From Tethya wilhelma (taxonomy: Eukaryota; Porifera; Demospongiae; Tethyida; Tethyidae), in the NCBI GenBank assembly GCA_964030475.1, contig CAXIPT010000002.1, positions 16,066,305 through 16,130,304 on the forward strand: DNA of 64,000 nt, in the 5' to 3' direction. Positions 38,513-50,827 of the stretch are shown here, piece by piece. Numbering within the stretch: the first letter of the stretch is position 1; each line of letters starts with the position of its first letter. The notes beneath the pieces are model-generated. The model saw nothing but the letters and a program-made list of their open reading frames with translations. It did not search any database and was not told where the DNA came from. The position numbers and the translations under genes are program-made.

Positions 38513-40605
38513 ATGGCAAGAAAGCAAAAATCAAGTTTGACATTCTTTAGAATTGAAGTGTATGGTTTATTCTGTATATTGTTGGTGAGTGAAGAGGGAA
38601 AAAAATAATTTTGTAGTATAATACTGATATTTGTTCTTAATACCGTAATTTATCAATCCCTCTAGGTAGGAGCTGTTCACTCACAGTATGATATCAGAGT
38701 ACACACACCCATCAACATTACAAACCCTACTAACACGCTGGCTAATGACAGCTGCTGCATCACCAATGAATCAATGCCATGTCCTACTGGCTGTACTGCA
38801 AGAGTATTTCTGTGTTTACGTCAACCAAACTTCCCTCAGGATCAACGTCAACTGGAATCCTCCTCCACTACTTGCCCTCTTGCTGGTTTAGTTTCAACTC
38901 CTAACCCTATGACACCAAACACAAATACATTGTCTCCCCGGCTCCCCTTGACATCCCTTCCGGTACATCAATCATTCATAATCACAACACTCAGTATTTT
39001 TTTGCAATGTCTGTTGTATAGGGAGAATCTCAACTCTACATCAGAATCTCTCAAATTGTTGAAGGTCTAGGTTCACTTACACTACCAATCATTGATGAAT
39101 TCTTCATAGAAATTGATGACACAGTGGTGGGCACTCCTAGAGACTACACTGGCATACAAGGAGACAGTGGAATAGCCAGTATTTCATTAGCTGTAGAGTT
39201 AACTCTTAATCCAATGTTCACCACTGATGAAGAAAATGAAGTACCTACCACAACTACAGTATCCAGTGAAAGTGATGAAAGCACAACCACGGCTGCTACA
39301 ACAACCACACTCCCAAGCACCACACAACAGACTGGGAGTGGTACCACAGCAGCTGAAACAACATTAGGAGGTGAGAATGATACCACTTCAACTTCTGGTA
39401 CAACTTTAACTTCTGGAGGTTACATGTCATCAGAAGTACCTATGTTAACGACCACTAATGGTATACATATATATACAGTGACATACTTGGCTCCAATAGA
39501 TTTATTTTCCAATATTTTGCTTTATGGACTCTTTATTGTGAATTATACAGATGACATAGATTCAACCACAAGTGGACAGCCTATCTCTGATTCCAGTGGG
39601 AACATTGCTGCTATTGCTGGTGGTGTGGCAGGAGGAGTGGTGATAGGGATCATCTTGACTGCCATCATTGTGGTGATAGTAATAATAGCATGTCGGCCAA
39701 CTTCACCAAGGCAGGGATACGACAAGAAACATGGTAAATGTAATGCATGCATCATGAGTTAGCATTAATAGGGAAACAGAACACTAGTATTTGTATAGCA
39801 CTGATAACTTGACCATCACTATTCTAGATCATGGTCCTCTGGAGAAGAATGGAGACACTCAAACAGCTAGTGGAAGCATACCAGTGTATGCAGTTGTGAA
39901 CAAAAAGAAAAGTAAGATTATTATTATTGTAAGCAACACAACTTGGACTATTTTGATTAAATTTTTACTTGACCAGAGAAAAAGGAGAAGACAGATGAGC
40001 CACCTACTGTTCCTCCTTATGTGGGTGATCTGATCTACTCAAATGTCAATTCTGAGTCTGATTCAAAACATGTAAGCCAAGAAGCAAAGAGAGAGAGCAA
40101 GGTTCCATGTTTGTATTTATTACTGTTCACTGAATGAGACCTCATCAAAGGAGATGTGGGGAATTAAGTTTATATGCATATGTGCAGATATCAAAACACA
40201 AGTGTGAAACAACAGCTTGGATATAATTTCTCAATGTCAAGAATCCCCAAACATGCACTCATATCATGTTACATACACTATACACACAATTATAATATTG
40301 TGTAGTATCATCATTGTAATCTTATTTGGCATGTGTTTCAGTTCTCTGAGGATGCACACCAACAAATGTCTGAAACAAGGTTCACCTCAAATGTGCCAGT
40401 GTCACATCAGTATTCAGAGATCTCTGATGTCACACATCAGTATTCAGAGATAAAAGCTGAGAATCAGTATTCGGAGATACCTGACAATGATAAGAAACCA
40501 AAGGTATTTAATGCCATAAACAAACTATAAAATAACTTGAAGTTATATGGTTGCTAAGGTATAAGAGCAAATAAGATTTACGTGATCACACACACACACA
40601 CACAC

Positions 40606-40696
<91 letters not shown>

Positions 40697-40797
40697 NACA
40701 CACACACACACACACACACATGTATGAACAGGGTACAGGAGCTGACAAGAAATTGGAGGATGTTACCAAAGTCACATATTCAGATGTCCAGTACTAA
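38513..40797 (+). CDS. receptor A: Cys-rich type I membrane protein with ITAM-like YSEI tail
   Basis: Eight exons: 38513-38584, 38666-38962, 39022-39460, 39551-39733, 39828-39911, 39977-40071, 40342-40503 and 40732-40797. All phases match; 465 aa. Signal peptide (VYGLFCILLVGAVHS), then a Cys-rich domain (DSCCI...CPTGCTARVFLCLRQP) shared with the three next genes, and the GESQLYIRISQ / IIDEFFIEIDD strand pair. It lacks the second, DSL-like Cys module of its neighbours. A Thr/Ser-rich stalk precedes one transmembrane helix (GVVIGIILTAIIVVIVIIAC). The tail has LIYSNV, three YSEI copies (first two with six residues between, as in an ITAM) and VTYSDVQY. Likely a tyrosine-phosphorylated surface receptor. 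Intron 39461-39550 is 90 bp and open, so it may be retained. Confidence 0.8.
40587..40720. repeat. (CA)n microsatellite with a gap
   Basis: About 65 CA units in the last intron of receptor A, with 'n' at 40697. True length unknown. Confidence 0.95.
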
Positions 40798-41905
40798 TAA
40801 AGAAAATAAAAATTCATAATGTTGATCATTATATTTTTACCATTTTCACATTATATATACGCTAGTTATTGTAGTTCAGACTCTGAGTGTATCCATAATA
40901 CTACCAGGAGTACTTCTTTTGATACTACTGATATATTGCTGTTAATTCATGTCCTTCATTATTATTTCCCTAAAATGAAGTAGTTTAGAAATTAAAGCAC
41001 ACCATGTTTATGTCTAGTGAATTTGGAATGTTATTTGATGTTAGTACCAGCCTGAACCAAGGTACCATAGAAAACATACACTATTCAATCATGTCATATA
41101 ACTATTACTGTGGATATTGTACGTATACTCAAGCTCAGCAAAACTATCGTAGCAATTACCTGTGTGAAGTTAACATTAAAAACGTTTCTGCAACTCTGAG
41201 TGAAGCAGATTCAAAGCTCAAGAAATTGATGAGGTAACACAGACCCATTTTGGGGGGCATTTTGAGCTAGTAACAATAAATATTATGATTATATTATTAT
41301 TGCATGCTTAAGTAAGAAAAGACTTAGTCTACTAACAATGAATTAAAAGTAATTTATCATAATCGCAACAGTCAACTTCATGAACAATAAATAGTATTTC
41401 TATCAGTTGATCATGAATCATGACCTTCAGGCATGCAAGCCAGCCATGTTGTATTATATATATGGGTCAAAGTGCTGACAGTGTTTGGCATGATGGCTTA
41501 ACTGTAAGCATATACACTACTTGTGTGTGCACATGATGCACATGTGCAAGTTCATCTGTAGAGTTAGTTACACAGTGACAGGTTTGGCATCTGATTAGGT
41601 CCATACATTTGAATTAATAAATAACTATGTAAAGCCATAGTCAGAGCAGCATGATGCAAAGGAGTACTTCACGTGCCTTGAAATCTGTCTGTAACATGTG
41701 TCATGGACACGTACACTACCTAATGGAATGATAATTAACTTTGTAATAATAAGTATGTCATACAATTTGACGTCATCTCTCCAATGTACATGGATGAGCC
41801 TGGCACGGATGTTTGCCAAAACAAAAGTGCATGATTATGACTTCACTTTTCCAGGTAAATTGCTCAGTACCGGAACAAATAATGACTGCTTATCCTCACA
41901 GAGGG
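40798..41905. other. intergenic between receptors A and B
   Basis: Only 3' and 5' flanking sequence; no exon matching the receptor domains is seen. Open stretches near 41004 and 41698 have no Cys-rich or signal-peptide pattern continuing in phase. Confidence 0.45.
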
Positions 41906-43134
41906 ATGGCAGCATTCCTCTGCTTAGCAGCAACAATAATGGTAAATTAAACCATGAGACAGTATATAGGCCTGCATACATTTTGATTCTGACTACTAAT
42001 AATATTATATGCAAATCCTTTTCTATACTTGACATGCACAGCTTTCAGTGCCTGTGGTACAAGGTGACTACAATGTGGGATTTGTGCTATCACACTTCAG
42101 CCATCCATCCAATACCCTTTTCAACAACACTTGCTGTGATCCAACTAATTGCAGTGATTGTGAGGTCACCTTGAGGATCTGCTTCAGGGAGTCTCAGCAC
42201 CCACAATCAGATACCGACTCAGATTGTCCCATATTTCAGCTGAATCGAATCTATGCCACATTCTTTTCCATGTATGGAACAGACCACAGCCCAACTGAAG
42301 GACCCTATCCAGTAAAATACAAATTTAATCAATGAAATAGTTTTATCATCATGTTTTATCCACACATATATAGGGAGAGTTTCAAGTCTATATCAGGGTG
42401 TCTCATTCTAGAGACCCCAATAATGGGAACTTTGACCCCCCATTCAGTGATGCACTCATTGATGATATCTTTGTTGAAGTGTCTCTCCCAGCTGCCTCCT
42501 ACGAGAACAGGGATTTACCTGTAACAGAAATGTATCCAGTAGAAGGAGTGTATGGCAAGGCAAGCCTACAGATTAGGGTGAATGTTCACTGTGCTGAGGG
42601 GTACCATGGAGCAAAGTGCGACAAGACAGGTTCAGATGAAGAGACTGAAGATAGTGACGGGCACACTGGTGATTCGCATCTGGAAATTGCAGATGGTGTG
42701 TATTTAGATATATTATAATAACACTCAGTCTTTAACATGCTTACAATAACATTATTGTAGAGTCAGGTTTCAGATCAGAGGATGAGAGCTCTAGTGTTGT
42801 AGCAATTGCTGTTGGATCTGTAATTGGAGCATTTGTGGTTGTTGCTCTATTGGTGATTGGTATTGTTGTTGCAGTGGCTCTCAAAAGATCAAAGCGCACA
42901 ATCTGGAAATCAAAATGTATGACCTATATAATAGCTAATAATAATTATTATTATTGTTGAAACTACCCATGATCTCTGATTCTTTACTTGCATGGTTCTA
43001 ATCACACATCATGACTATTGGTTACTAATTCAGATACAAAGTGGTTCCCAGCAAGTGAAAAGTCTGAGACTAACGTGTACACCACTGCTGATACTGATAT
43101 CATTGAGAATCCTACCTACAGCAGCAGTTCATGA
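41906..43134 (+). CDS. receptor B: Notch-ligand-like Cys-rich membrane protein, short NPTY tail
   Basis: Five exons: 41906-41941, 42042-42311, 42374-42695, 42761-42916 and 43034-43134. Phases agree; 294 aa. Signal peptide MAAFLCLAATIMLSVPVVQG. First module: NNTCCDPTNCSDCEVTLRIC then FRE...SDTDSDC, a Cys spacing like the N-terminal MNNL region of Delta/Jagged. Then GEFQVYIRVSH, DPPFSDALIDDIFVEV and a second module ending LQIRVNVHCAEGYHGAKCD, like the start of a DSL domain. No EGF repeats. Transmembrane helix AFVVVALLVIGIVVAVAL, then a short tail with NVYTTAD and IIENPTYSSSS. NPTY fits the NPxY motif for PTB-domain adaptors. Family likeness is inference from Cys pattern. Confidence 0.78.
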
Positions 43135-43533
43135 AGCCTGCTGCATTGGAGCATGGAACAAGAACTTTAAATTTAATTTCATACAAATAACTTAATTTTA
43201 GCATCTTGATAACTTGAACATAACGTATTGGACACTGTTACTATATAGTTAACTTGATGAGCAGAGATTTAAATAATAATACTATAGTGTAAACAATTTC
43301 AGATTGTATTACATATTCATGGGATTTAGCTATAAGGTTTCTGTTTACAAACTATCAGAATCATGACTTTATTATTGCATAACAAAATATGAATCTACAT
43401 TGAATTACATGGTGATTTTGGAATTCACAGTACTTACGTCCATACACAGTCATAATGACCTATACTGACCATAGGGATTCAGTTATAGGCTACTAGCCGA
43501 CAGAAGTAAGAAGAATACTCAAATGCCGTTAAC

Positions 43534-45010
43534 ATGGATAACAAAGAATCGAATCGAAAATATTTATATTATCTTTTGTATATCTGTATTTTTTACATGG
43601 TTAAGGTGAGTCAAATGGATCAAGAAGAGGCATGATTTCAGTGTGGGACTGACAGAGCATTATATATACCTTAAATATTAATGATAATGATTACCTTTGG
43701 TTCATGTATACACACCATGTCACACATACTTATTACAACAGGTGAAGGCAGATTTTCACCTAGGATTTGTTACTAGACAATTTAGCAACCCAGGCAACCT
43801 GCTCTACAATGGAACATGCTGTCAATCAGACTGCAGTGAATGTTTTGTTACTCTAAGACTTTGTTTCAGAGAAGCTGGAACCCCTCATTCAGACACGACA
43901 TCACCCTGCTCCATACTTCAGTTTGATCGCAGCACCCTATCATCATTTCCTGTCTTTGGGACTGATGGCAACGCAACAGAGAAAAACTATACTGTACGTT
44001 AATGCTATTATGATAATTATAATGTTAACATCAACACATTATGAATTTATGCATGCTCATGCATGTAGGGATCGTTTCAAGTGTACATACGTGTGTCGCA
44101 TCATGCCGACCGGAATGTGGATCCCAGTTTCAATCCACCATTTCTTGATCCTCTCATTGATAACATATTCGTTGAGGTCACTGATCTCGTTGCTGGACCC
44201 TTTGAACAGATAAATTCACCAGTTTTTACATCATATGAAGTAACAGGAGAATTTAGTAGAGCATCTCTTCAGTTTAGGGTGTCAGCCCACTGTGCTGAAG
44301 GATTCAATGGTTCAGACTGCAGTACACTGTGCCGGGAGATAAATGGATCATTAATGTGTGAGCAAGGTAAGAATAAGTACTAATCTTATACAGCGAGTAC
44401 CATCCGTTTTTTTTCTTAAAACTTTCAGTTACTTTTGATACTCCAACACAAGTGCCAGTGACCACTAATCCACAGACAACAACACAATTCATTGAGGAAA
44501 CAACATTACCAACAACAAATGAACAAACAACGACATCACCAACAACAAATGAACAAACAATGACATCACCAACAACAAATGAACAAACAACGTCACCAAC
44601 AACTGTTCAATCAGACGATCAAACAACCATAATAGGTTTCACCACTGAACAGATGACCACGTCAACAGAGCTACCTGAAGAAAGCAACAGAGCCCTGCCT
44701 ATTGCAGTGGGTGTTTCAGTTGGTGGTGGGACCATTATCCTCTTCCTTTTCATTGGAGTCATCATTTCAATGGTGTTCTTCATTGTAAAGGTGTGGATGA
44801 GGGACTCTTACAATAAAAAGAAAGGTATATAGATATAAGCAACCTAGAACTCCATTAAGGAGATAACAATACTGTAATGCCACGTGCATGCTAATTTAAC
44901 AAACATACAACTATGAAATTTACATAGCTATTAGTGACACTGAACTGGAGTCACAACAGCCATTAACTTCTGAGCTAGCTATCAGCACCAGTCACAAAGG
45001 AGCATCATGA
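43534..45010 (+). CDS. receptor C: Notch-ligand-like membrane protein, Thr-rich stalk, tyrosine-poor tail
   Basis: Five exons: 43534-43605, 43742-43993, 44069-44366, 44429-44824 and 44928-45010, giving 366 aa. A signal-peptide-like start (YLYYLLYICIFYMV) is followed by the shared module GTCCQSDCSECFVTLRLC, then GSFQVYIRVSH and PLIDNIFVEV. The DSL-like module AHCAEGFNGSDCSTLC runs on to MCEQ. A stalk has the repeat TTNEQTTTSPTTNEQ (about three units), probably O-glycosylated. Transmembrane helix TIILFLFIGVIISMVFFIV. The tail (SDTELESQQPLTSEL) lacks signalling tyrosines except one beside the membrane; it has an acidic ExxxPL element resembling a sorting signal. The first exon could end at 43599 instead; the last exon is chosen by phase. 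Confidence 0.76.
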
Positions 45011-45850
45011 TTAGTACTCAATAAATGCAATTACAGGTATGGTAACTGAAACTGACATCCAAATTAGTGTATAATTATGTTGTCTATCTTTAATAATAAT
45101 AGTACACTTTCATGTGTATAGAGGGCTCAAAGGTCACCTACACAGCTGTAAGATAATAATGACTGACTAAAATTAATGTTAATAATTATTACAACAATGT
45201 TTTGTATAATTATAGTTAATATGTACGTACATAAGTACATTATATTATAATGTAAATACTTGCAAGGCAATATTACATAAACATCGTTATAATTAATGTG
45301 GAAGAAGGATGTTTGCTAGCTATAGCCACGATAGTCCGGCTGGCCAGACAGACTAATAGCCATGAATGGGTGGAGCTTACATGTACAGGAGGAACTCTAC
45401 ACTGGTGATGTTGGAATGAATCATTGGAACCACAACAATAGCATGTAAAGTCATGAAGCCTTGTAAGCATGCATTGTGTTGTTATGCACTAGCTGCCATA
45501 AAGTGCTTTGAACATTCAATTGGTTTCAGTTTGAGAGTAGTAAAGATCTTGAGACTTGAGTAGCAAATAGCTGCTCTGCACCCAGATAGACTCACTGAGG
45601 GCTCAATCATATGACTGTCAATACTAAGTTGGCTCAAGACAAGTATAAACTTAAAGGTATACTAGCTGTCTATGTAGTAGCTTCTTACCGTATTAATAAT
45701 TGTAAGTGTGATGAACATAGGGAGGCATGCATATAGTCGATTATCATTATATACAAGAGAGAATGGTTACAATCACTTAATAGCTACCTTCTTCATGTTG
45801 GCAGAGGACCAGGGGACATGTGTACATTTTAATGAGGGATTGATATAACT

Positions 45851-48496
45851 ATGAAGCACCTGATCACACATGGAGCAGTTTGGGTTTTAACCTTCAATCT
45901 ACTAATTATGATGGTTAGTCTTCCTATTGTGTAACATCATGTAGTAATTAAGGTTTATAATGTTATTGTCATATCACATCATACAGGTTAAGGCAGATTA
46001 TGAAGTTAATATTTTATCACCAACAACGTTCAGCCATTTCAACAATTCACTACTCTTTAATGGCAGCTGCTGTAATGATGATTGTACTGAGTGTACAGCC
46101 ACCTTGAGATATTGTGTCAGGGATTCAGGACATCCAACATCTGATACAACTTCATGTCTTCTCAGTGCTAATCGTGACAATCTATTACAATTTACAGTGG
46201 AATTAGGACGAATAAGTGCTTGCTATACAGTAAGTCTGCACGATTTGTCTTCGAATTGAGTACCTAGCTATAGGCTAGGCTACTAGGTTAATGTTTTATT
46301 GTTTGTGCATGTAGAAATTAACCAGAATTTGTCCTTTATACACTGTAGATTAGCATTAGCTTGTTTGTCCGCAATTAATGTAAATAACTGAGTTTAATTG
46401 TGATTATGTGTGCATACACATACATTATGTATGTCTCTTCATGGCATGGTAAATCATTGGATATGATACAGGGCTCCCTTCAGATATACATCAGAGTTTC
46501 TCATCAAATTAGTGAAGAGCCAGATTTTGATCCACCATTCAGTGATTCTCTTATTGACGATGTTTTTGTTGAAGTCACAAACCTTGCTGCACAACCATTT
46601 CAAGCTACTGGAAGGACTCCATATGAAGCAACTGGACAATTCACCCAAGTATTCTTACGCCTTAGGGCTAGGGTAACCTGTGCCCAAGGATTCAATGGTT
46701 CAGATTGTAATACATTTTGCAATGATACAGATGGAGAACTAGTGTGTGAACAAGCAGGTCAGGAAGAGTATTAACACACACATAGCAACGTCAGTGTGCC
46801 TTGTCAATAATTAATCAACTAATAAAATTAGTTGCACTCTATGTATTTTGTTGAGCACATGGATGAGGTTTATGTCATGACACCGGCCCTACCTTTGTTT
46901 CTGTTTGTCTCTTAATTGGTGTGTAATGGTAGTTTTACTTTTGATGATGTATTTCAATTTCATTCTTTTGTAGTGCGTGATTGTAACTTTACTACTGATA
47001 CATCTACCACCTCAACTGCTACGACTGCACCTCCTACCTCAACTGCTACTACGGCACCTCCTACCACTACTCCAATAACACCCACCACATCTGCTCCACT
47101 TGGACCATCTGGTAGTAACAACAATGTTATCGGGATTGCTATTGGAGCTACCCTAGGTGGCATTCTTGTCCTAGTCATCATACTCATCATCATCGGGCTA
47201 GTGGTGATCTGGCTGAGAAGATCTCAAAGAAAGGGCTCCTATGACCCTCAAGTTGGTAGGTAACTAATTCAATCAATGTAGGCTGATGTTAAAGTTTGCA
47301 TATCATAATGTATGGACATAATATTATGCCGCGATACTACATTTTATTACAAGTTTTCTATCACTCAATCAGTTCATAATGTTAGTCACTATCCGTTGGT
47401 ATCAAATCGTGACTCTGTGACCGAATCTCAACTCAAAAGCCGTCCAAAAAGCTTTGACTCATTCAGCAGTGAAAGTCAAAGTACTAGCACCAACAGCCCC
47501 AGGAGTGTAACTGACACATATTCTACTGTGAACAAAAAAGGTGATTAAAATGAATTGTGTGTTGCCAGTTATTAAGTCAAGCAAATAGAAACTATACAGT
47601 AACCATACGTACCTTCTGACTTATTGCTCATCTGACCTAGGCACAAACAAGTCTCTCTACACACCACCATATGTTCCGGAGGCAAGTTTCAATCAACAAC
47701 AAGACATGGTAACTTGAATACACTGTGCTACAAAACCTTTATACTTATACCTTTATTCTGACTCCACCAAGCTTGACATGGCAACACATGCATGTACGTA
47801 CAATATCATGATAAAAGTGTGGTTGTTCCTTCCAGGATGATTATGATGATGATGATGATGAACATACATACCAAAATACAATCTCAATACAGGAACAGAA
47901 ACGTTATACTGGTGTGATTGAAACTGAGGTACCTATATTTTAACAGACAAAAAGTTGGGTTTCCTACAGAGAACGTTTTTAGCATTGCACATGATGACTG
48001 AAAAATGATACAACCATGATTTCTTTGGCTTCTGTTGTGAAAGTTCAGCCAAAAAGCCTTTGTTTATCAAATTTCTAATCGCAATCCAATGAAATGAATA
48101 CAGCACCCCTCACCATTCACATCACAGTTCATGGCTTCAAGACAGTGAAACTAAAGTAGGGGAATAATGGGGAATGCCTGGTAACCTTAAATGTGGAAGT
48201 GTGCATTGAAAGGTATCCATCATAATTCATTTAATATCACAGATTATTGTACCCAACGAGACACCTGGGCAGGATGGATTGGTGTATGCTGATTTGGACA
48301 TCTCTAGGCAAGGAACAATGCAGACAAGCCATGAAGAGGCAATGAGGACCCATTCAAACATGATAAGTGTGGTAAGTTACTTCAATTCACACAAATACAA
48401 TGTAGTTAAATATATTCAAACTTATTCTAGGATGAAGATGCTACTGCAGAACCATATGACAACATTGAAGTTCAATATACCACTGTAAAACATTGA
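45851..48496 (+). CDS. receptor D: Notch-ligand-like membrane protein with ITIM-like, tyrosine-rich tail
   Basis: Nine exons: 45851-45913, 45987-46229, 46472-46757, 46974-47255, 47373-47540, 47641-47708, 47836-47928, 48243-48371 and 48431-48496. Phases agree; 465 aa. Signal peptide WVLTFNLLIMM. Modules GSCCNDDCTECTATLRYC and GSLQIYIRVSH, SLIDDVFVEV, then CAQGFNGSDCNTFC continuing to VCEQ. Pro/Thr stalk, then transmembrane helix ILVLVIILIIIGLVVIWL. The tail is encoded by five exons with about ten tyrosines. They include LVYADLDI (consensus ITIM form L-x-Y-x-x-L), PYDNIEVQYTTV (YxN Grb2-type site plus V-x-Y-x-x-V), DTYSTV and an acidic DDYDDDDDE run. Likely an inhibitory or adaptor-recruiting surface receptor; no ligand known. 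Confidence 0.8.
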
Positions 48497-48639: not shown

Positions 48640-48757
48640 ATTTTTGCTGAGTCAGCGTGCACCGGCCGGTCTCCGCACGCGCGCCGCTCATGCTCAACTC
48701 AAGATCTCACGTGCCAAAACACGTGGATGAGTTTGAAGATCAGAAGAGAGGTACATC
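48640..48757 (+). promoter_or_regulatory. NOG1 promoter region with paired E-boxes
   Basis: A short CpG-rich stretch (CACCGGCCGGTCTCCGCACG) is followed by two CACGTG boxes at 48708 and 48720, about 40-50 bp upstream of the start codon. Such E-boxes suit Myc/Max-type control of a ribosome-biogenesis gene (inference). Confidence 0.55.
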
Positions 48758-50827
48758 ATGAGCCACTACAATTTCAAGAAAGTTACGGTCGTTCCATCGT
48801 CCAAAGACTTTGTAGACATTGTCCTATCAAAGACCCAACGTAAGACACCAACCGTTATCCACAAACACTACAAGATATCTCGCATCCGTCAATTCTACAC
48901 AAGGAAGATCAAGTTCACTCAGCAAAATTTTCACGACAAGCTTGCTACCATTTTGAGCGAGTTTCCAAAACTAGACGACATCCATCCCTTTTATGCTGAT
49001 CTCATGAACGTACTCTACGACAAGGATCACTATAAGCTAGCACTCGGGCAAATAAACACTGCCAAGCACTTGATTGACAACGTAGCCAAGGACTATGTCC
49101 GACTACTAAAGTTTGGTGATTCACTGTACCGATGCAAGCAACTCAAGAGAGCAGCTCTGGGTCGAATGTGTACTATCATGAAACGACAGAACCAAAGCCT
49201 TCAATATTTGGAACAGGTGAGACAACATCTTGCCAGGCTGCCCTCCATTGATCCCAACACACGTACCATACTCATCTGCGGTTTCCCAAACGTTGGCAAG
49301 TCGAGCTTCATCAACAAGGTCACTCGAGCTGACGTTGAAGTTCAACCTTATGCCTTCACGACCAAGTCCCTGTTTGTTGGCCACATGGACTACAGGTATC
49401 TCCGCTGGCAGGTAGTGGACACCCCGGGGATCTTGGACCACTCCTTGGAGGAGAGGAACACCATCGAGATGCAAGCCATCACCGCTTTAGCTCACCTCCG
49501 AGCTGCTGTCCTCTACGTGATGGATATCTCTGAGCAGTGTGGGCACTCCATCGAGGAGCAGGTGGAGCTCTTCAACAACATCAAGCCCCTCTTCACCAAC
49601 AAACCACTGATTATTGCCCTCAATAAAGTGGACATTCTTCGTCCTGATGAACTCCAAGATGAGTGCAAAGCTTGTCTGGCTAAGGTGGAAAGTGAGGGAG
49701 TGATGGTGCTACCGATGAGCACTGTCACCGAAGAAGGAATCATCGATATCAAGACCAAAGCGTGCGATATGCTTCTCACCCAGAGAGTCGAGGCAAAGCT
49801 GAGAAGCAAGAAGATGCCGGAAGTGATCAACAGACTTCACGTTTCTGTTCCGACCCCTCGTGACAACGTGGAGAGACCCCCTTTCATTCCTCCCGGTGCC
49901 AAGCTGAAGAAGGCCACAGCTCCCTCGTCAATGGAGCTTGACGATGAAATCACAAGTGGTGGGCCAAAGAAGAAATCAGAGAGAGAAATCGAAATCGAAA
50001 TGGGAGACGATTATGTTCTTGACCTCAAGAAGCACTACATGTTAGCTGACGAATCTCACAAGTATGACACCATTGCTGAAATCTTTGAAGGAAAGAACAT
50101 TGCTGACTACATTGATCTGGACATTCTCCATCGGCTGGAGGAGCTGGAGCGCGAAGAGGAGGCCAGAGAGGCTGCTGGTGTGTACGAGTCCGAACCTGAG
50201 GATGAGCAAACTGTCGAGACGAGAAAGTTTGCGATTGCCATTCGTAAGAAGAGGGCTTTTCTTAGGAAGCAAAGCTGGGAGAAGAAAAGTAGGAACTATC
50301 CCACAATGCCTAGAGGGGTAGGCCAAGAAGGCCGAGGTAGAAAGAGAACTACTACTGAGAGAATGGAAATGGGAGGTAGTGATGATGGAGACTCAGACAT
50401 GGAGGATGATGGTGAGAGAAACATTCATTATTCTAAGTAGAGCACACCATGATAATTGTTGTGTCTTCCTCAATGCAGATGTCTCAATGGGAAGTGTTCC
50501 CAGCCGTAAAAGACCTCGGTCACAATCAGCTGCTGTTGCAAAGTCTCGTTCATTGTCAAGAAGACCTCGGTATGCCACATTTTCCTAAGTGTACTATAGT
50601 TGTTAGGAACATCATTGTTTACTGTTGTAATGTCCTGTCCCTCCAGTGATCAGTCTGGTGTTCGTGATGCAGTCCAGTTGAGAGCAGCCAAGAAGAAAGT
50701 AAAGTTAGCTCAGCGTTCATTTGCTCGTAAAGGCACCCAGGGAGAGTCTGATAGAGTGGTAGTGATAAAGAAACCCAAGCACTTGTTTGCTGGAAAGAGG
50801 AAACAGGGAAAGACTGGTCGGAGATAG
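48758..50827 (+). CDS. GTPBP4: nucleolar GTP-binding protein NOG1/GTPBP4
   Basis: Three exons: 48758-50411, 50479-50569 and 50647-50827. Phases match; 641 aa, close to the usual size. The N-terminus [20 protein letters not shown] and the [16 protein letters not shown] block are diagnostic of NOG1. The GTPase domain shows G1 GFPNVGKSS, the TTK/LFVGH switch region, G3 DTPGI and G4 NKVD. A Lys/Glu-rich C-terminal arm ends [16 protein letters not shown], as in other eukaryotes. It acts in the nucleolus on pre-60S ribosomal particles, binding near the peptidyl-transferase centre and the tunnel during 60S maturation. All key residues are present, so the gene should be functional. Most of it is one long exon, with small introns only in the basic tail. 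Confidence 0.97.

Follow-up and report, generated by a model that had tools for sequence, protein, structure and literature searches.

Tandem genes of the sponge Tethya wilhelma predicted to join a Delta-derived ectodomain to tails with tyrosine motifs

Four related genes lie in tandem

We analysed 64 kb of the genome of the demosponge Tethya wilhelma (assembly GCA_964030475.1, contig CAXIPT010000002.1, C2:16066305-16130304, hereafter the window), in which four genes, A to D, follow one another on the + strand between positions 38513, the first ATG of A, and 48496, where the stop codon of D ends (Table 1). An original prediction, drawn from the DNA letters alone, had described them as four same-strand receptors combining a Notch-ligand-like ectodomain with tyrosine-motif tails. 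Its coordinates were reproduced exactly by our predicted models, in which every intron is GT-AG and the frame is kept throughout. The four genes share one plan, that is, a hydrophobic leader, an ectodomain encoded by two exons, a single transmembrane (TM) helix and a cytoplasmic tail of 1-5 exons. Exon 2 carries a cysteine block, and exon 3 the strands VYIRVSH/LIDxIFVEV together with, in B-D, a CAEGF-type module. The TM helix is encoded by exon 4 in B-D and by exon 3 in A, and the exons downstream of it number 4, 1, 1 and 5 in A, B, C and D, in agreement with the predicted range of 1 to 5. Hydropathy supported one TM helix in each protein, with zero charged residues in its 19-residue peak, and a Thr-rich stalk precedes it in A, C and D. 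The proposed signal peptides were retained as hydrophobic leaders in all four proteins, a call based on hydropathy only (N-terminal peaks of 1.27-2.01, lowest in C).

The strand pair was found as VYIRVSH/LIDDIFVEV in B, VYIRVSH/LIDNIFVEV in C and IYIRVSH/LIDDVFVEV in D, and in a weaker form, LYIRISQ/IIDEFFIEI, in A. The cysteine block was present, but its last spacing had been misjudged: it is CC-x3/4-C-x2-C-x6-C in B-D rather than ending in x5, and CC-x7-C-x3-C-x6-C in A. The CAEGFxGxxC module announced for B, C and D reads CAEG[YF]xGxxC in B and C and CAQGFNGSDC in D. Compared with C, the ectodomains of B and D are 49-51% identical and that of A 25-28%.

Table 1. Features of genes A to D, in window coordinates. 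MNNL and exon hidden Markov model (HMM) scores are in bits; ITIM, immunoreceptor tyrosine-based inhibitory motif.
Feature	Position	Strand	Description
Gene A	38513..40797	+	7 exons, 495 aa, most diverged member; splice model, GT-AG, in frame
Gene A exons	38513-38584, 38666-38962, 39022-39733, 39828-39911, 39977-40071, 40342-40503, 40732-40797	+	
Gene A exon 2	38666..38962	+	MNNL/C2-like first half, CC..C..C..C; MNNL 13 (below cut-off), exon HMM 27.5
Gene A exon 3	39022..39733	+	C2-like second half LYIRISQ/IIDEFFIEI, zero DSL cysteines, Thr-rich stalk, TM; exon HMM 16.5
Gene A tail exons	39828..40797	+	PVYAVV, LIYSNV (ITIM), QYSEI x3, terminal KVTYSDVQY (ITIM)
Gene B	41906..43134	+	5 exons, 294 aa; lacks a Thr-rich stalk; tail short, NPTY present, no ITIM
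Gene B exons	41906-41941, 42042-42311, 42374-42695, 42761-42916, 43034-43134	+	
Gene B exon 2	42042..42311	+	MNNL/C2-like first half; MNNL 14.9, E 0.019 (below cut-off), exon HMM 30.1
Gene B exon 3	42374..42695	+	C2-like second half and DSL remnant CAEGYHGAKC (2 cysteines); exon HMM 33.8
Gene C	43534..45010	+	5 exons, 366 aa; main-form tail with none of the tested motifs
Gene C exons	43534-43605, 43742-43993, 44069-44366, 44429-44824, 44928-45010	+	
Gene C exon 2	43742..43993	+	MNNL/C2-like first half; MNNL 14.6, E 0.024 (below cut-off), exon HMM 32.6
Gene C exon 3	44069..44366	+	C2-like second half and DSL remnant CAEGFNGSDCSTLC...MC (4 cysteines); exon HMM 46.5
Gene C putative alternative last exon	45122-45156	+	Phase 1; exon 4 spliced here, exon 5 skipped; EGSKVTYTAVR, ITIM-type; splice-site consensus only
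Gene D	45851..48496	+	9 exons, 465 aa; splice model, GT-AG, in frame
Gene D exons	45851-45913, 45987-46229, 46472-46757, 46974-47255, 47373-47540, 47641-47708, 47836-47928, 48243-48371, 48431-48496	+	
Gene D exon 2	45987..46229	+	MNNL/C2-like first half; exon HMM 24.5, no Pfam match
Gene D exon 3	46472..46757	+	C2-like second half and DSL remnant CAQGFNGSDCNTFC...VC (4 cysteines); exon HMM 50.2
Gene D exon 4	46974..47255	+	Thr-rich stalk, uncharged TM helix
Gene D tail, 5 exons	47373..48496	+	SHYPLV, YSTV, YQNT, YTGV, LVYADL, YDNI, terminal VQYTTV

A fifth member outside the window

A D-like paralog, E, was found ~61 kb beyond gene D, with exon 2 at C2:16176281 and exon 3 at C2:16181367; the two exons, 5 kb apart, were taken as one gene. 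The ectodomains of D and E are 81% identical, and parts of D exons 4, 5, 7, 8 and 9 also matched the locus of E. The tail of E appears damaged: a frameshift in exon 5 removes SHYPLV, LVYADL has become LVCAST and VQYTTV has become AQYMTV, so that the three strict ITIMs of D are absent. The ratio of nonsynonymous to synonymous substitution rates (dN/dS) between D and E was 1.26 in exon 2 and 0.49 in exon 3, and 0.70 when the two exons were combined. These values come from few changes and give no clear sign of diversifying selection. E may represent a copy in decay or a partner that lacks ITIMs.

Evidence for a Delta-type ancestry of the ectodomain

The ectodomains had been likened to MNNL plus the start of DSL of Delta/Jagged. 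Against the Pfam MNNL model, the spliced proteins A, B and C scored 13.0, 14.9 and 14.6 bits, all below the cut-off of 22.5, and a scan of spliced protein D gave no match. Pfam DSL had zero matches in the 64-kb window or in the four spliced proteins. Elsewhere in the 124.6 Mb of genome searched, at least 26 MNNL and at least 81 DSL matches (E<=0.001) were found, all above cut-off and none inside the window. The Pfam models for both domains miss all four genes, so that a domain scan would overlook genes of this kind. As had been claimed, no EGF repeats follow: Pfam EGF had zero matches at E<=1 in any of the four proteins, and the gene models contain none. Weak Pfam matches to MGC-24, TMEM154, RIFIN and similar models were attributed to stalk and TM composition and set aside.

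We then turned to the genome's own Delta-like genes. Seventeen fetched MNNL/DSL loci were scanned for MNNL exons and 16 gave one; the match at L014 proved to be a TM, and this locus was rejected. Several of the scanned loci also have DSL and EGF exons and are Delta-like. Exon HMMs were built from 16 MNNL exons (14 loci) and 13 following exons, chosen and trimmed by eye, and they scored A-E at 23-33 bits (MNNL exon) and 16-53 bits (following exon). In each of 20 tests, 0/2000 shuffles and 0/2000 cysteine-fixed shuffles reached the real score. The margin was small for gene A exon 2, which at 27.5 bits led the best cysteine-fixed shuffle (26.4) by 1.1 bits.

Profile-profile comparisons pointed in the same direction. 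Aligned by hhalign with a profile of eight Delta-like ectodomains of the genome, the A-E profile gave a probability of 99.5 and an E-value of 3e-23. Searched against the PDB (177635 distinct sequences), it returned six matches at E<=10, all of them Notch ligands and four below 0.05: Serrate (1.3e-4), Delta (9.1e-4), Jagged-2 (0.0028 and 0.012) and Jagged-1 (0.13 and 0.19), the entries being 7alt, 7alk, 5mw7, 5mw5, 5uk5 and 4cbz. As a control, the profile of the genome's Delta-like genes returned 16 matches at E<=10, namely 12 Notch ligands (best 2.4e-32) and four others at 0.11 or above. The ectodomain of gene C found zero relatives at E<=1 in a database of 5.8 billion proteins. In the genome it gave 44 matches at the same threshold; eight were exons belonging to B, C, D and E, and a hand count showed that 29 of the remaining 36 overlapped Pfam matches to MNNL or DSL.

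The gene structure was also informative. The intron that divides the C2/MNNL domain has a position and phase common to A-E and the genome's Delta-like genes: the border between exons 2 and 3 fell in one alignment column in 11/11 sequences (six exon pairs of the genome's loci and A-E, pre-cut at the border and then joined). Among the genome exons, a phase-0 GT donor closes 15/16 MNNL exons and an AG acceptor opens 12/13 following exons. In a tree of 11 exon pairs of the genome's loci and A-E, the latter formed one group (support 90/89), gene A standing on an end branch of 2.12. Collectively, the likeness to MNNL and the start of DSL held in the profile tests and in the intron, but the Pfam MNNL cut-off was missed and the DSL is reduced. 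That A-D are predicted Delta derivatives, tandem duplicates with a cut-down DSL and without EGF repeats, is well supported by these comparisons.

The reduction of DSL differs between the genes. Out of the six cysteines of a full DSL, C and D keep four, B two and A none. Of the four full DSLs aligned, three (L013a, L019 and L023, the last with PRND..GH) contain a PRDD..GH stretch, whole or in part, which is absent from the alignment rows of A-D. Positions of this type are presumably Notch contacts.

Tyrosine motifs of the cytoplasmic tails

The tails had been described as carrying tyrosine motifs that differ between the genes, and this was upheld by comparison with 20000 shuffles of the tails of A, B, the alternative form of C, and D, the main form of C being left out. 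The ITIM pattern [ILVS]xYxx[ILV] occurred six times against 0.83 expected (p=1.5e-4): twice in A, once in the alternative form of C and three times in D, with none in B or in the main form of C. The count would fall to five if the main form of C replaced the alternative one, the p-value being that for six. Yxx[ILV] occurred 13 times against 3.33 expected, and 0/20000 shuffles had as many. A spacing like that of the immunoreceptor tyrosine-based activation motif (ITAM) occurred once (p=0.028), as YSEI-x6-YSEI across two of the three QYSEI repeats of A; it is the sole such stretch in the A-D tails, and the same tail carries ITIMs. The tails end alike, in VTYSDVQY (A), VTYTAVR (C alternative) and VQYTTVKH (D), with a common motif V-[TQ]-Y-[ST]-x-V, and their motifs are therefore not independent. 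The prediction of tyrosine-motif tails is partly supported, by ITIM-type motifs in A, D and one putative splice form of C.

Candidate effectors are encoded in the same genome, which has 64 SH2 and 167 PTP matches. One gene, at C9:1427138-1429062, has two SH2 matches and then two PTP matches in order, as read from its exons; we take this SH2-SH2-PTP gene to be of the SHP type. Besides six Notch-type LNR matches, the genome has nine Wnt matches, in keeping with an animal source, and two innexin matches that narrowly pass the cut-off (25.6 and 25.4 bits against 25).

Other Delta-derived architectures and the surroundings of the cluster

Two loci of the same genome, L021 (C8:1357000-1364500, -) and L029 (C13:378000-386000, +), combine MNNL and a shortened DSL with CCP/sushi-like repeats and a TM. 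They resemble A-D in the MNNL exon, the same intron, the shortened DSL and the TM, with no EGF in the stretches read, and differ in the CCP repeats (named by eye) and in standing apart from A-E in the tree. L029 has VVYSTI in the open frame after the TM. At L041 (C1:16629259-16632447, -), MNNL-like, DSL-like and EGF exons are followed by a phosphatase-like exon, HCSDTVTRSG, and preceded by Ig-like exons, both named by eye; the MNNL/DSL cluster at C1:16.60-16.67 Mb has further PTP matches inside. L015 and L016 (C5:4025000-4056000, -) show MNNL, a DSL in shortened form and a TM-like exon rich in cysteines, with EGF not noticed nearby, and L039 (C1:24737107-24740367, -) shows an MNNL-like exon, EGF exons, a TM and a long tyrosine-rich open frame.

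Within the window, the last intron of gene A contains a long run of (CA)n that includes one N (40586-40720). Directly after gene D lies an open frame of 567 aa (48737-50440), presumably a NOG1-type GTPase from its look.

Discussion

We favour, at a probability of roughly 55%, the reading that A-D are Delta tips set on phosphotyrosine tails and work as contact receptors rather than as Notch activators. An ancestral Delta-type ligand would have been duplicated in tandem, the copies keeping its outer tip, that is, the C2-like MNNL and, in B-D, the DSL start. At cell contacts, the proteins would act as receptors, most likely not as Notch activators, with the C2-like tip binding something on the neighbouring cell. 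Src-type kinases may phosphorylate the tail tyrosines, and the ITIM-type sites of A, D and the possible splice form of C, where its alternative exon would be used, could recruit the SH2-SH2-PTP phosphatase and so damp the signal. B, with NPxY and without ITIM, would work via endocytic or PTB adaptors. The ancestry, the anatomy, the tail motifs, the SH2 matches and the presence of an SH2-SH2-PTP gene can be read from the predicted sequences themselves; receptor-like signalling by A-D is plausible on the same footing.

A number of observations weigh against this reading. A-D are splice models predicted from the genomic sequence. Gene C by itself found no Notch ligand in the PDB (three matches, E 0.22 or worse), so that the family profile was needed for the match described above. 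When the genome was searched at E<=1, neither the C nor the B ectodomain recovered gene A, and an AlphaFold2 model of the C ectodomain, made with window sequences only, had a mean pLDDT (predicted local distance difference test) of 37.6 and was unusable. In the tails, YxN (three, p=0.11) and NPxY (one, p=0.06) were not significant against shuffles, ITIMs are absent from B and Yxx[ILV] from the main form of C, and the shuffle test counts the genes as independent despite their common terminal motif. Tyrosine motifs were also seen near TM exons of other Delta-like loci, namely NPLYES (L017), NPAYIT (L019) and LVYMYV (L023), in open frames beside those exons, the EGF repeats of L023 being unconfirmed. 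Because such motifs also lie next to the TM exons of Delta-like loci that do have EGF repeats, the tails of A-D may be inherited ligand tails and not a new device.

One alternative is that A-D are non-canonical, EGF-less Notch ligands. They would bind Notch in cis or in trans, chiefly to inhibit it or to act as weak ligands, and use their tails for endocytosis. We regard this alternative as unlikely, although the Delta ancestry seen by hhalign and in the PDB profile search would suit it, as would six Notch-type LNR matches in the genome, the EGF-less Delta known from Amphimedon queenslandica (PMC3482393) and the NPTY of B, similar to the NPxY beside TM exons of EGF-bearing Delta-like loci. Its difficulty is a DSL with 4, 2 or 0 of six cysteines and without PRDD..GH. 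This loss is not decisive because the Amphimedon Deltas (AmqDeltas) are reported to lack conserved essential binding sites as well (PMC3482393).

The paired activating/inhibitory pattern of the original prediction, perhaps serving self/non-self recognition, fared less well and seems to us doubtful. No TM helix of A-D is charged, no near-identical pair of ectodomains was seen in the window (B and D are at 49-51% and A at 25-28% identity to C), and the only ITAM-like spacing sits beside ITIMs in A. What remains in its favour is the tandem cluster with divergent tails, the ITIMs of A, D and the possible C form, that ITAM-like spacing, and the putative alternative last exon of C, which recalls an ITIM/hemITAM splice swap described for Botryllus FcoR (PMC12065747). 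D and E come closest to a pair, with similar ectodomains and the strict ITIMs on one side, but tail exon 5 of E is damaged and the D/E dN/dS values given above show no clear diversifying selection. The frameshift and motif loss in E, together with the strong divergence of the gene A ectodomain (end branch 2.12), would suit a tandem array in decay, in which the tail motifs survive as leftovers without present function. This we consider improbable, given that A-D are all open across 5-9 exons with intact splice sites, that the tail motifs are enriched, and that the ends of A, C and D retain a common motif.

Parts of the combination have precedents. AmqDelta4 has no EGF repeats, all five AmqDeltas have DSL, and the MNNL cysteine pattern is kept in all of them, software detecting the domain only in AmqDelta4; their tails are divergent, with predicted SH2 and PTB sites (PMC3482393). 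An Amphimedon Delta with 0 EGF and unusual DSL-only genes of cnidarians are also reported (PMC2770060), as are MNNL and DSL from a choanoflagellate (PMC6040629), and DSL domains are mentioned in a receptor tyrosine kinase of Capsaspora (PMC4810162). For human Notch-ligand tails, the legend to a motif-prediction figure names ITIM and the immunoreceptor tyrosine-based switch motif (ITSM) among its motifs (PMC1965462). A-D resemble AmqDelta1-5 in the signal peptide (here by hydropathy), the MNNL-type cysteine pattern and the single TM, and AmqDelta4 also in lacking EGF; they differ, going by the published descriptions of the AmqDeltas, in a DSL cut to 4, 2 or 0 cysteines, the tandem cluster, the ITIM-type sites and tails of up to five exons. 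Like bilaterian Jagged, Serrate and Delta, the only PDB matches of the A-E profile at E<=10, they have an N-terminal C2-like domain. A complete DSL and EGF repeats, both present in the bilaterian ligands, are missing from A-D.

Tyrosine-motif tails are shared with the FcoR of Botryllus, which are type I receptors encoded at the fuhc locus, and ITIM/ITAM motifs are reported in allorecognition in Hydractinia, at the Alr locus, as well as in Botryllus (PMC12065747). The FcoR ectodomains described there are built of Ig and sushi domains, unlike the Notch-ligand C2/DSL ectodomains of A-D. We know of no allorecognition role for A-D. The original prediction had known of no description of such a combination. 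Among the matches listed in the open-licence literature, a coverage in which subscription papers and preprints are mostly missing, no paper joined a Notch-ligand ectodomain to ITIM tails in a sponge, and MNNL and ITIM occurred together in no paper of that literature. The claim of novelty is nevertheless tempered, because AmqDelta4 is EGF-less and SH2 and ITIM/ITSM sites had already been predicted in Notch-ligand tails.

A bolder and less likely reading is that an early-branching animal turned a Notch ligand into contact receptors of the ITIM/ITAM type, with the tip kept as sensor, the EGF stalk dropped, and tail exons shuffled or spliced to switch the output, by analogy with self/non-self recognition systems built on unrelated ectodomains. 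Should the tails signal in the way that their motifs indicate, Notch-ligand domains would have served as receptor heads on phosphotyrosine tails close to the root of the animal tree. This would bear on the origins of both Notch ligands and ITIM-type immune signalling. A-D offer named genes with which contact-dependent or self-recognition signalling may be tested in this sponge.

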